Shown in pieces: positions 6,761-63,616 of a stretch of DNA of 64,000 nucleotides. A model generated the notes under the pieces. It made no database searches and was not told where the DNA came from. It saw only the letters and a program-made list of their open reading frames with translations. The first letter of the stretch is position 1. Each line of letters starts with the position of its first letter. The translations under genes were made by a program, and so were the position numbers. Origin of the DNA: an uncultured Lachnospiraceae bacterium (GTDB lineage Bacteria > Bacillota > Clostridia > Lachnospirales > Lachnospiraceae); assembly GCA_947178125.1 (NCBI GenBank), contig CAMWXB010000001.1:62001-126000 (forward strand). Reading direction: 5' to 3'.

Positions 6761-6909
6761 GACGCAAGCCCAGCGGCTTGCGTCACAAGAATTGCGCTGC
6801 AATTCTTGCTTACGCCACACGAAATTGATATTGAAGGGAAAAGGTTGAAAGAAAAGCGCTTTCAACTATTGATTTGAGTGTCTGCTGAAGCAGACAAATG
6901 GGTATAAAT
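6761..6909 (+). promoter_or_regulatory. Structured 5' leader: four successive stem-loops before the GH5 gene
   Basis: Four inverted repeats follow one another. GACGCAAGCC pairs with GGCTTGCGTC (6761-6784) and CAAGAATTGC with GCAATTCTTG (6786-6808), both perfect 10-bp stems. GTTGAAAG pairs with CTTTCAAC (6844-6866), and GTCTGC with GCAGAC (6880-6895) around a TGAA loop. The last ends exactly 14 nt before the ATG at 6910. The last two stems with their ATTGATTTGAG linker recur before the lrp gene (54812-54890) and, partly degraded, before the Gfo/Idh gene (63443-63500), with the same 14-nt spacing. Confidence 0.7.
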
Positions 6910-8061
6910 ATGAAACGGAAAAAATATCTGATATCTGCCTTAATCATTGTTCTTAGTTTGAGTTTTAACCTGAACGGATGCGGACAGAAAGAAAACGTAA
7001 CTGACAACAAAAAGGAAACGGCTAACGACGCTGCAGCCAAAAACGAAACGGAGACAGAATCAATGAGCAGAGAAATAACGGAAGTAACAGAAGTCACAGA
7101 AGTAACAGAAAACACAACCAACACAGTAGAACCGAACAGCGCACAGACACCTCTCGCCTTACATGGCGCACTCCATGTAGAAGGCACCGCCCTGACGGAC
7201 AGTCATGGAAACCCGGTACAGCTTCGGGGAATGTCCACGCACGGTATCGCATGGTTCCCGGAATACATCAATTATGAAACATTCCGGTACCTGCGCGACG
7301 ACTGGCACACGAACTGCATCCGGCTTGCCATGTATACCGCAGAACCGGACGGCTACTGCAGTGACGGCAATCGGGAAGAATTGAAAAATCTGATCAAAAA
7401 CGGCGTGGAATATGCTTCCGAACTTGGCATGTATGTTATTATCGACTGGCATATCCTGAGCGACCAGAGCCCCCTCACCTATAAAACAGAGGCCATACAG
7501 TTTTTTGATGAGATGTCGAAGCTGTATGCAGGCTATGATAATGTCCTTTATGAAATCTGCAATGAACCCAACAATGCCGGAACATGGGATGCCGTATGCA
7601 CTTATGCCAATGAGGTGATTCCCGTTATCCGCGCAAACAATGCAGATGCCGTTATCCTTGTCGGCACGCCTACTTGGAGCCAGGATATCGATCAGGCGCT
7701 TGCCGCACCGCTCGACTATGAAAATATTATGTATGTCCTTCACTTTTATGCCGCGACCCACACGGACTGGCTCCGGGAACGGATGAAAACCTGCATCGAA
7801 AGCGGTCTCCCGGTCTTCGTCAGCGAATTTGGCATATGCGATGCTTCCGGCAACGGCGCAGTCGATACCGCACAGGGAGACGCCTGGAAAGAACTGATTG
7901 AAACATATAACGTCAGCTATCTATGCTGGAATCTCGCGAACAAAAACGAATCCAGCAGCATTCTTATTCCCGGCTGCCCAAAACTTTATGACTGGAGCGA
8001 TGCGGATCTGAGCGAACAGGGAAAATGGATTCGAGAATGGTTTTTAAGCGAGACAGAATAA
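6910..8061 (+). CDS. Glycoside hydrolase family 5 lipoprotein (endoglucanase type)
   Basis: 383 residues. A signal peptide ends in a lipobox (LNGC), so the enzyme is tethered outside the membrane; a Thr/Glu-rich linker follows. The catalytic barrel shows the GH5 landmarks: RGMSTHGIAWFPEY, VIIDWHILSD, the acid/base ICNEPNN (Glu about 219) and the nucleophile VFVSEFGICD (Glu about 306). It would cut beta-1,4-glucan or mannan; the substrate cannot be decided. The second ATG (6910) is preferred over 6898, because the equivalent layout before the Gfo/Idh gene puts the ribosome binding site between the two ATGs. The esterase gene follows after 30 bases. Confidence 0.9.
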   Translation: MKRKKYLISALIIVLSLSFNLNGCGQKENVTDNKKETANDAAAKNETETESMSREITEVTEVTEVTENTTNTVEPNSAQTPLALHGALHVEGTALTDSHGNPVQLRGMSTHGIAWFPEYINYETFRYLRDDWHTNCIRLAMYTAEPDGYCSDGNREELKNLIKNGVEYASELGMYVIIDWHILSDQSPLTYKTEAIQFFDEMSKLYAGYDNVLYEICNEPNNAGTWDAVCTYANEVIPVIRANNADAVILVGTPTWSQDIDQALAAPLDYENIMYVLHFYAATHTDWLRERMKTCIESGLPVFVSEFGICDASGNGAVDTAQGDAWKELIETYNVSYLCWNLANKNESSSILIPGCPKLYDWSDADLSEQGKWIREWFLSETE

Positions 8062-54332: not shown

Positions 54333-54811
54333 GGTGTCACCTTCTCTCTCGTATCTTCATGTTTCTTCATCAGAATCGTTCCATGGTCTTTGTATTTTTT
54401 CAAAATAAAATGCGTTGCCGTGCTGAGTACCGTATCCAGCGTAGAAAGCTTATCCGATACAAAAGCGGATACCTCTTTTAAGGATTTTCCTTCCAGCGTA
54501 ACAAGAAGGTCATAGCCGCCGGATATCAGATAAACGGAATTTACTTCCGGATATTTGTAAATACGCTCCGCAATGTTATCAAAACCCTGGCCTCGCTGCG
54601 GCGTCACTCTTACCTCGATCAACGCGCTGACCTTTTCGATGGAAGTCTTTTCCCAGTCGATCAGCGTATGGTAACCGCAGATAATTCCCTCGCTCTCCAA
54701 TGCTGCAAGTTCATTCACGATATCAATTTCTTCCTCTCCCATGAGAACGGCCAGTTCCTTTACATCGATTCGGCTGTTCTTTTCAATCATTGACAATAAT
54801 TTTTCTCTCAT
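54329..54811 (-). CDS. Lrp/AsnC-family regulator
   Basis: 160 residues: N-terminal winged helix (MIEKNSRIDVKELAVLMGEE, NELAALESEGIICGYHTLID) and a C-terminal RAM ligand-binding domain (VYLISGGYDLLVTLEGKSL). It senses an amino acid and probably regulates the coupled aminotransferase. The mRNA leader carries the conserved two-hairpin element, whose last stem ends 14 nt before this ATG. Confidence 0.88.
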   Translation of the reverse strand: MREKLLSMIEKNSRIDVKELAVLMGEEEIDIVNELAALESEGIICGYHTLIDWEKTSIEKVSALIEVRVTPQRGQGFDNIAERIYKYPEVNSVYLISGGYDLLVTLEGKSLKEVSAFVSDKLSTLDTVLSTATHFILKKYKDHGTILMKKHEDTREKVTP

Positions 54812-54910
54812 TTTTACTCCTCTCTGTCTGCTTCAGCAGACGCTCAAATCAATAGTTGAAAGTTCTTTTCTTTCAACCTTTCTCCATGCTCCTTTCTCAA
54901 CGCGCGAGTC
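54812..54910 (-). promoter_or_regulatory. Two-hairpin leader before the Lrp/AsnC gene
   Basis: In the sense direction: a TTGAGAAAGGAGCATGG block, GTTGAAAG / CTTTCAAC (about 54854-54877), the linker TATTGATTTGAGC, then GTCTGC-TGAA-GCAGAC (54841-54826) and a 14-nt tail AGAGAGGAGTAAAA that contains the ribosome binding site. Nearly identical to 6844-6909, inverted. The rest up to 54939 holds a GTGAGAAGAAGTTCC piece of another module. Confidence 0.7.
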
Positions 54911-62359: not shown

Positions 62360-63442
62360 TTTCTTCTGTAATTCGGAATCATACGCCTTGCTGTCGCAAG
62401 GTATCTGCAATGGCTTCTGCTGCCAGTCAGATAAGTAGGCCGCATTACAGTTCTCCAACGCACGTCTTCCGTCGCAAAGCGCCGCCAACGGTTTCTCCCT
62501 GCCTTCCATCGCATCGACAAAATTCTGAAGAATGACCGTATACTCATTTTCCGTCTGTTCCACTTCCCTGCGCTCTTCCGTATAAGGAATCTTCGGATAC
62601 ATCTCCTGCGAAGTTTTTGATACTTCCGCTGTGGAAACCTCATTTTTGTACAGCGTGATATACCGATTGTCTTCTACGACCAATTTTCCCATCTCTCCAT
62701 GGATTTCAAGCCGGTTCGTCCCAGGTGAATCCCCGCTGGAAGACAGGAAAGTTCCCCACATACCATTCTCATGCCGGAAAAAGAGAGAAGCCTTGTCATC
62801 CACATCGATATCGCTGTAACACCCATAGCCGAGCTGCGCCGAAACCTCACAGGGCTGCCCGAAAAGCCAGTTCCACATATCAAGCAGATGCTGACACTGA
62901 TTGATCAGCAGGCCGCCGCCTTCACCGCCCCAACTGCTGCGCCAGCCGGAAGCATGATGATAATATGCCGGACGGTACCAGAAATTAGCGACCCATATTA
63001 CCTGTGTAAGCCGCCCCAGTTTTCCGGTATGGATATATTCGTAGACCTGTCGGTAAACTTCCCGTGCCCGCCAGTTGAAGATCATGGCGCTTACGGTTCC
63101 CGTATCTTCATAAGATAATGCTCCGCACTCCTCTACCGTTACGCCGAGCGGCTTTTCACACAGGACATGAAGTCCCGCCTGCTGCGCCCTTTTCACGACC
63201 CGCACATGCTCTTTATGCGGTGTTGTAATGATCAGCGCATCGAAATTTTCCCGCGCCTGAAACATACTTTCTTCGTCCGGGAAAATTGCGGCTTCCGGCA
63301 TACTCTCCCGAATCTTCTGCTGTCCCGGCTGATTGCGGCACAAAATGCCATAAAGCGACAGGCCTTTTATTTTACCGTTATAGATTTTTTCGGCATACTG
63401 GCCTCCCATGTTACCATAACCGACAATAACTGCTTTTTTCAT
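62342..63442 (-). CDS. Gfo/Idh/MocA-family oxidoreductase
   Basis: 366 residues. Rossmann start AVIVGYGNMGGQYAEKIYNG for NAD(P). The substrate Lys sits in LHVLCEKPLGVTVEECG (the EKP motif), and the C-terminal alpha/beta domain includes GGLLINQCQHLLDMWNWLFG and TNRLEIHGEMGKLVVED. It oxidises or reduces a sugar or inositol derivative. The start at 63442 is chosen because the ribosome binding site lies between it and an upstream ATG. The conserved hairpin leader precedes it. Confidence 0.9.
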   Translation of the reverse strand: MKKAVIVGYGNMGGQYAEKIYNGKIKGLSLYGILCRNQPGQQKIRESMPEAAIFPDEESMFQARENFDALIITTPHKEHVRVVKRAQQAGLHVLCEKPLGVTVEECGALSYEDTGTVSAMIFNWRAREVYRQVYEYIHTGKLGRLTQVIWVANFWYRPAYYHHASGWRSSWGGEGGGLLINQCQHLLDMWNWLFGQPCEVSAQLGYGCYSDIDVDDKASLFFRHENGMWGTFLSSSGDSPGTNRLEIHGEMGKLVVEDNRYITLYKNEVSTAEVSKTSQEMYPKIPYTEERREVEQTENEYTVILQNFVDAMEGREKPLAALCDGRRALENCNAAYLSDWQQKPLQIPCDSKAYDSELQKKIQAEQ

Positions 63443-63505
63443 GTTCACTCCCATCTGTCCGCTTCAGCAGACACTCAAATTCAATCGTTGAAAGCGCTTT
63501 TCTTT
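63443..63505 (-). promoter_or_regulatory. Two-hairpin leader before the Gfo/Idh gene, second stem degraded
   Basis: In the sense direction: GTTGAAAG-type arm present but its partner arm changed (TTCCC in place of TCAAC), linker ATTGAATTTGAGT, then GTCTGC-TGAA-GCGGAC (63472-63457) and the 14-nt tail AGATGGGAGTGAAC. The A-to-G change in the stem keeps pairing as a G-U. Same spacing as at 6880-6909 and 54841-54812. Confidence 0.65.
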
Positions 63506-63616
63506 TCCCTGTAAGATTCCTCGTTGGCTTTTCCGGCCAATCTTCCCTATGATTATAGATTAGCCGATATACTTCGTTTTTACAAGACAGGAATTGCCTA
63601 TCCGGCATCTTTTGAT

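Follow-up and report, generated by a model that had tools for sequence, protein, structure and literature searches.

The PATEs of Haloquadratum are, in the part of their description used here, short non-coding units that carry palindromes near their ends, produce no target duplication and include a possibly mobile 52-bp form, and their ends are related to those of IS605-type transposons (PMC3119063). REP/REPIN units with RAYT transposases are described as many short palindromic intergenic repeats with variable stem sequences and composite arrangements. In Streptococcus pneumoniae, some of the small, interspersed BOX repeats give the start codon to an expressed ORF (PMC3049150, in part), and in marine Beggiatoaceae the TAACTGA repeats have been proposed to be the binding site of a post-transcriptional regulator (PMC4679880, in part).

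The element described here, three copies of which lie in the window (the whole 64,000-nt stretch of DNA that was analysed), is closest in its anatomy to PATEs and to REP/REPIN units, as far as the portions of the sources used here describe these. Like PATEs, it has palindromes near both ends, its ends (GGTTGAAA and GGTATAA) are not inverted repeats, and there is no clear target duplication at pncB or at the rplK–rplA junction, where at most one A is ambiguous. It differs from PATEs in that no relation of its ends to IS605-type ends was found in the Y1 loci of draft genomes, and in that an SD–ATG target is not described for PATEs in the part of the report considered (PMC3119063). With REP/REPIN units it shares the features listed above, but the GTAG/CGTC tag ascribed to REPs is not in its consensus, the genome of the window (G000) has no match to the Y1/RAYT family (PF01797), and REPs are described as extragenic repeats, not as units at start codons. 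REP/REPIN membership was rejected on the first two of these grounds, and MITE membership because the unit ends are not inverted repeats and there is no clear target duplication. Thus, the element works like a PATE, but since the REP tag and a RAYT match in G000 are lacking and no IS605-related ends were recognised in the Y1 loci inspected, we do not file it as a PATE or as a REP. The ORFs started by BOX repeats are reported to have no good SD candidates (PMC3049150, in part), in contrast to the SD-like end of the present element. The TAACTGA repeats resemble it in being mostly forward and a few nt from the start codons of unrelated genes, but they are seven-nt direct repeats with little SD character (PMC4679880, in part). 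In the open-access literature we found analogues only and no report of a mobile element addressed to the SD–ATG region; start-directed insertion of a PATE/REP-type repeat thus looks new. We propose that the element is probably a non-autonomous miniature mobile element directed to translation starts, and not the leader of a regulon.

Three copies of a two-hairpin element in the window

The first copy (repeat unit GG...TAA, 6843..6907, + strand), whose ends are placed by analogy with the 63-nt tandem units of the Lachnospiraceae genome CANSUS01 (G104), precedes a GH5 gene. Its hairpin 1 (6844..6866, +) consists of GTTGAAAG, AAAAGCG and CTTTCAAC, with positions 6844–6851 pairing with 6859–6866, and is followed by the conserved linker TATTGATTTGAGT (6867..6879, +), by hairpin 2 (6880..6895, +; GTCTGC–TGAA–GCAGAC, a stem that appears to have undergone compensatory changes across subfamilies) and by the 14-nt tail AAATGGGTATAAAT (6896..6909, +), directly after which comes the ATG of the GH5 gene at 6910. 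The tail would be an SD-like replacement, its last two bases being taken as original flank; its limits are based on the tail-like left flanks and tandem joints described below. On direct reading, GAAGGG (6833..6838, +), now 5' of the element, is the putative former SD of the GH5 gene, the general test being that on rejoined sites. The second copy (unit 54814..54878, − strand; stem 2 at 54826–54841) lies before an Lrp/AsnC gene, and its tail AGAGAGGAGTAAAA (54812..54825, −) covers the 14 nt before the ATG, which begins at 54811. The third (unit 63445..63509, − strand; stem 2 at 63457–63472) lies before a Gfo/Idh gene and likewise ends in a 14-nt tail, AGATGGGAGTGAAC (63443..63456, −), in front of an ATG that begins at 63442; the 5' arm of its hairpin 1 has decayed to GGGAAAAG. 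The first-pass annotation, which described a two-hairpin unit ending 14 nt before the ATG, is thus borne out for all three copies, as is its statement that one stem of the Gfo/Idh copy is decayed, except that the unit extends one G further left in the GH5 and Lrp copies than first described. By analogy with the tandem copies of G104, the right end of the window copies would lie 2 nt before the ATG.

Pfam assigns the three downstream genes to GH5 cellulase, the Lrp/AsnC ligand-binding domain and GFO_IDH_MocA. The sequence GTCTGCTGAAGCAGAC, with at most 3 mismatches, has 6 matches in the window (three places, both strands) versus 0.25 expected from a shuffle control, and the 26-nt core TTTCAAC..GTCTGC has 2 matches versus 0.00 expected. 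Both hairpins form in RNA folding of the GH5 copy (z = −3.74). A search of the 64-kb window with Rfam at the gathering threshold gave no match, and a known riboswitch or leader was rejected on this basis.

The tail ATGGGAGTAAAAATG (6898, +; 63454, −) contains an upstream ATG in frame, 12 nt from the start codon, which is why mechanical ORF calling placed the starts of the GH5 and Gfo/Idh genes four codons too far upstream. Several gene starts (47874, −, and 16035, +, in the window; L020, L025 and L155) have another repeated leader, roughly CGCAGGYTGAGAGAAAGGCATGGTTATTA..ATG; in L020 and L025 this leader is directly adjacent to the hairpin element, which gives the impression of stacked leaders.

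Position and orientation of the copies in two genomes

To locate further copies, we used a covariance model (R1) made from 19 copies; as it covers nothing beyond stem 2, it presupposes no particular distance to the ATG. In G000, a 4.14-Mb draft of 131 contigs (93% complete), R1 gave 51 matches at E ≤ 1 and 45 at E ≤ 0.01. Among these 45, an ATG stands exactly at +14 in 31 and only elsewhere within 12 to 16 in four, the remaining ten having none at 11–17; an ATG-initiated ORF of at least 100 aa begins 10–40 nt downstream in the sense direction for 32 copies and in the antisense direction for five. The same model gave 46 matches at E ≤ 0.01 in G104, of which 43 were examined: the ATG is at +13 or +14 in 34 (the tail of a burst subfamily being one base shorter), at +12 in one and absent from 11–17 in eight, with a sense ORF of at least 100 aa 10–40 nt downstream of 32 copies and an antisense one of none. 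The fixed 14-nt spacing that had been claimed from three genes is therefore common genome-wide without being universal, and tabulation shows that distance and orientation to starts are not random.

An identical 52-nt hairpin–linker–hairpin core is present in 11 of the 43 examined G104 copies, and G104 holds a recent burst of the element; some of these identical recent copies, which lie in unrelated places, have no ORF of at least 60 aa. Ten downstream genes scanned with Pfam are unrelated to each other. That the resemblance between the leaders is due to chance similarity of hairpins and SDs, or to duplication of gene starts with no target preference, is extremely improbable: SD-like tails are indeed common before genes and some decayed matches (e.g. 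C50:2160 and C9:72166) look like chance, but the shuffle controls given above, the reversed-pattern control (0 and 1 matches versus 37 and 32 for the pattern itself) and the identical core at 11 places all speak against it, and it is already contradicted by the clean empty sites described below.

Conservation of stem 2

Among the close copies (set A2), covariation is not significant. The 88 copies of G000 and G104 comprise 27 distinct stem-2 hairpins, in which 90.7% of the positions pair (G-U allowed) versus a mean of 74.9% and at most 81.5% when the arms were re-dealt 2000 times, an excess that is supportive and does not represent a probability, since re-dealing ignores relatedness; in either genome taken alone, none of the re-dealings reaches the observed pairing. 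The main stem types are GTCTGC/GCAGAC (34 copies) and GTCCGC/GCGGAC (22), with GCCTGC/GCAGGC, GTGCGC/GCGCAC and GCGCGC/GCGCGC as rarer ones. An alignment designated A3 was kept out of the covariation count because the registers of stem 1 are mixed, some minus-strand 3' ends are cut and one copy appears twice. Altogether, these comparisons support the idea that compensatory changes preserve stem 2 across subfamilies; the covariation that the first-pass annotation had proposed to look for is thus found at that level, but not at a significant level among close copies alone. Several copies have a decayed hairpin 1 or none at all.

Empty sites in relatives

The rplK–rplA junction is uninterrupted in all 19 relatives fetched, 17 of which read exactly GTAGAAGAGTAATGGAGG and two of which have one change, whereas in G000 about 65 nt are inserted between GAGTA and ATGGAGG. 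The ATG behind this insert is not the start codon of rplA, the SD of which is downstream of the insert. Comparison of the empty junction (GAGTAATGG) with the filled one (GAGTAAATG..GAGTATGG) reveals one ambiguous A at most and no clear target duplication; the tail of this copy is shorter than the consensus. At pncB, which we take by eye to encode nicotinate phosphoribosyltransferase, the empty form is present in G035, the one relative fetched; here, too, the ATG behind the insert is not the start of the gene, and the junction, within a run of A's, likewise has no clear target duplication. Clean empty sites at non-start insertions thus number only two, rplA and pncB, the latter resting on one relative. 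Judged by sequence, a copy of a longer-stem subfamily (L127, in G034) lies after apparently the same upstream gene as the pncB-site copy. At lysS, the left flank in G000 (..GAAAGGCACAGGTATCAAG) is alignable with G006 (..GAAAGGCATGGTTATTAAG|ATG) as far as the last base in front of the G006 ATG.

The element is absent from all fetched genus orthologues of lysS (15/15), purH (15/15), Lrp (14/14, the gene behind the second window copy), rplA (19/19), rplI (6/6), frr (6/6), purF (4/4) and rnfE (2/2). One of the lysS orthologues (L166) has another hairpin–SD leader. Compared with the empty sites of relatives, the element thus stands out as a discrete insert.

These observations bear on the possibility of a cis-acting translational leader, whose linker and hairpins would be bound by a protein or an sRNA and whose copies would be kept at starts by selection for regulation. 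Such a leader would agree with the +14 phase fixed in 31 of 45 copies, with the sense orientation and with the compensation in stem 2 and the conservation of the linker across subfamilies. We nevertheless consider it unlikely, since the downstream genes are unrelated, none of the fetched orthologues has the element, insertions occur before ATGs that are not start codons, identical recent copies of G104 lie at unrelated places, some with no ORF of at least 60 aa, and no Rfam family matches the window. A regulon of shared function was rejected because the targets are unrelated and the fetched orthologues are devoid of the element. Of the two suggestions made in the first-pass annotation, that of a mobile translational leader largely stands, as the empty sites reveal insertion and the tail has an SD-like sequence; that of one post-transcriptional regulon does not, given the ten unrelated Pfam-scanned genes, the orthologues fetched from the genus and the non-start ATGs at rplA and pncB.

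Ends of the unit, target sequence and fixed phase

Three tandem pairs with a spacing of 63 nt are present in G104. Their joints read ..GGGGTATAA|GGTTGAAAG.. or ..GGGGTGTAA|GGTTGAAAG.., which fixes the G104 unit as |GG...TAA|. The 17 G104 copies beginning with GGTTGAAAGAAAAAC all have AA immediately to their left; on their right side stand A-N-ATG (14 copies), AAACG (one), AATAT (one) and the next tandem unit (one). The element lies in the sense orientation after an SD-like, A-ending sequence (roughly GGnnnAA|), in most cases with 2 nt between it and a following ATG, and there is a resemblance between its left flank and its own right end (GGGAGTAA or GGGGTATAA). With a weight matrix derived from the tails of 32 G000 copies, the left flank scores about 6 sd above offsets of 15–149 nt.

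The test on rejoined sites drew on G000 and G104 and covered the 43 copies whose left end can be recognised and which have an ATG at +13/+14 and an ORF of at least 60 aa; an SD match was defined as 4 nt or more, no further than 20 nt from the ATG. In silico removal of the unit left such a match in 65%, whereas windows further upstream averaged 30% (maximum 42%); 35% of the rejoined sites have no SD by this rule. With the unit in place, the figure is 81%. The unit thus tends to separate the ATG from the former SD, and at its right end it imitates the sequence behind which it is inserted. The first-pass annotation had argued that a transposed repeat would not keep its phase; this argument does not hold where insertion is target-specific and the unit has a target-like right end, as found here.

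From the resemblance between right end and flank we infer that an enzyme may recognise this sequence. More specifically, a unit of about 63–66 nt, with hairpin 1 as a palindrome at its left end and hairpin 2 as a second one, 11–12 nt from its right end, would insert at an SD-like, A-ending sequence before an ATG. On its entry between SD and ATG, the right end would re-create the target, and the old SD would be pushed upstream while a substitute is supplied in the same phase, so that insertions at housekeeping genes could be tolerated. The same spot could then be hit again, giving tandem and stacked units. A unit placed between the old SD and the ATG, with a look-alike right end, accounts for fixed phase, orientation and stacking with no need for regulatory selection, and the fixed phase most likely comes from the insertion site and not from a regulon. 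In its strongest form, which we put forward as a tentative possibility, somewhat less probable than its negation, the proposal is that of an element class addressed to translation starts, in which the enzyme recognises SD and ATG, the right end copies this address, the RBS is swapped at each hit and, in lineages of this group, dozens of leaders have been rewritten in successive, stacked waves. Recognition of SD and ATG might rely on the DNA motif or, conceivably, proceed by way of the mRNA or a ribosome bound to it.

The weaker points of the mobile-element reading are that no mobiliser was found in the genomes searched (see below) and that 10 of 45 G000 and 8 of 43 G104 copies have no ATG at 11–17; the rejoined sites with no SD, the small number of clean empty sites at non-start insertions and the short tail at rplA also count against it. 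In addition, the tails of three stacked G104 copies (L262, L267 and L272) agree with that of the older unit to their left and not with the burst consensus, which is not predicted by a simple cut-and-paste unit; they look as if they had been exchanged at insertion or converted later.

If the element is indeed mobile and start-directed, the leaders of unrelated, even housekeeping, genes can gain a common sequence, structure and phase with no shared regulation, although such a common-leader pattern is normally read as a regulon. The natural filled and empty alleles would offer a way to measure how far a start region tolerates replacement of its SD, and should the enzyme be found, its SD-then-ATG address would set it apart from the usual transposition or recombination systems.

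Two further arrangements were seen around the element. L293 and L295 (G104) are composite: in these copies a third hairpin (GCGCGTCGCAACGCGC) separates hairpin 2 from the tail. A GCCGC..GCAGGCGGCATG palindrome, which ends in ..GGAA or ..GAA, stands directly to the left of the element in L009 and L030 (G000) and in L265, L277, L279, L280 and L293 (G104), suggesting that other repeats serve as landing sites.

Search for a mobiliser

No mobiliser was found in G000 or in the genomes tested for Y1 and IS110. A Y1 transposase (PF01797) has no match in the drafts of G000, G034, G017, G104, G105 and G107, among which are the richest carriers, whereas it is matched in 24 of 60 genus genomes and in four of the seven named-scan genomes that carry the element, these four having one or two R1 matches each. 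The linker motif is absent from the 12 Y1 loci inspected, and in the nine that were properly placed (not L102, L103 and L112) the flanks around the Y1 gene bear no resemblance to the element. IS110 (PF02371) is present in four of eight genomes tested, including G104 and G034, and was set aside as a candidate mobiliser, being absent from the G000 draft. Draft assemblies often lose insertion sequences, so the absence of a transposase is weak evidence. The upstream ORFs of nine G000 copies that have no hairpin 1, inspected by eye for an autonomous long form, contain no transposase. The element has no match in plasmid and phage collections, and a narrow pattern for it has none in IMG/VR; a plasmid, phage or viral origin was rejected accordingly. 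Readings of the ends as integron attC or Helitron-like were also rejected, being at odds with the bases found at the lysS and rplA junctions.

A possible, if rather doubtful, reading assigns the element to the IS200/IS605 (HUH, Y1) world as a remnant or passenger; it would then be a PATE mobilised in trans by a transposase that acts on single strands and recognises hairpins. IS608 carries a guide sequence before its hairpin; here hairpin 1 starts at the left end, which leaves little room for an IS608-like guide. The absence of Y1 matches from the six drafts named above and the 12 Y1 loci with no linker motif, nine of them with flanks unlike the element, also argue against it. On the other hand, the near-terminal palindromes, the lack of a clear target duplication, the left end abutting a short conserved sequence and the small size are as in PATEs, and, in the part of the report used, strain-specific PATE insertions are described although the IS200-type transposons of one strain are all pseudogenes (PMC3119063). 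The Y1 genes in the genus and in named-scan carriers counted above are likewise in its favour.

Relatives and subfamilies

Among 61 genomes (G000 and 60 relatives), nine, G000 included, have R1 matches at E ≤ 0.01. In G034 an analogous element has a similar hairpin 1 and the same linker core TTGATTTGAG, but its hairpin 2 is longer and of another sequence, and its tail reads CATGGAGGCAAAAATG. A linker/spacer/SD–ATG pattern, which does not allow TTGAATTTGAG and so misses most G000 copies, matches nine of 77 genus genomes; hairpins are recognised by eye in seven of these (G000, G082, G034, G072, G032, G092 and G003), the stems of these relatives including ATTCCGC/GCGGAAT, while the matches in G084 and G009 were set aside as looking like chance by eye. 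The narrow pattern run over named genomes identified 11 loci, all in MAGs of Lachnospiraceae bacterium, Roseburia sp. or Acetatifactor sp., G104 being one of these genomes. One orthologous pair among the loci (L130 and L134) has the element in both members; a second pair (L136/L129) shares it too, but only L136 has hairpin 1.

Hairpins of the AAGAATGCC..GGCATTCTTC type also stand before genes in the window, at about 55950 (−), 46235 (−) and 45248 (−), and similar hairpins precede the ATTCCGC/GCGGAAT leader type in relatives (L118 and L121).
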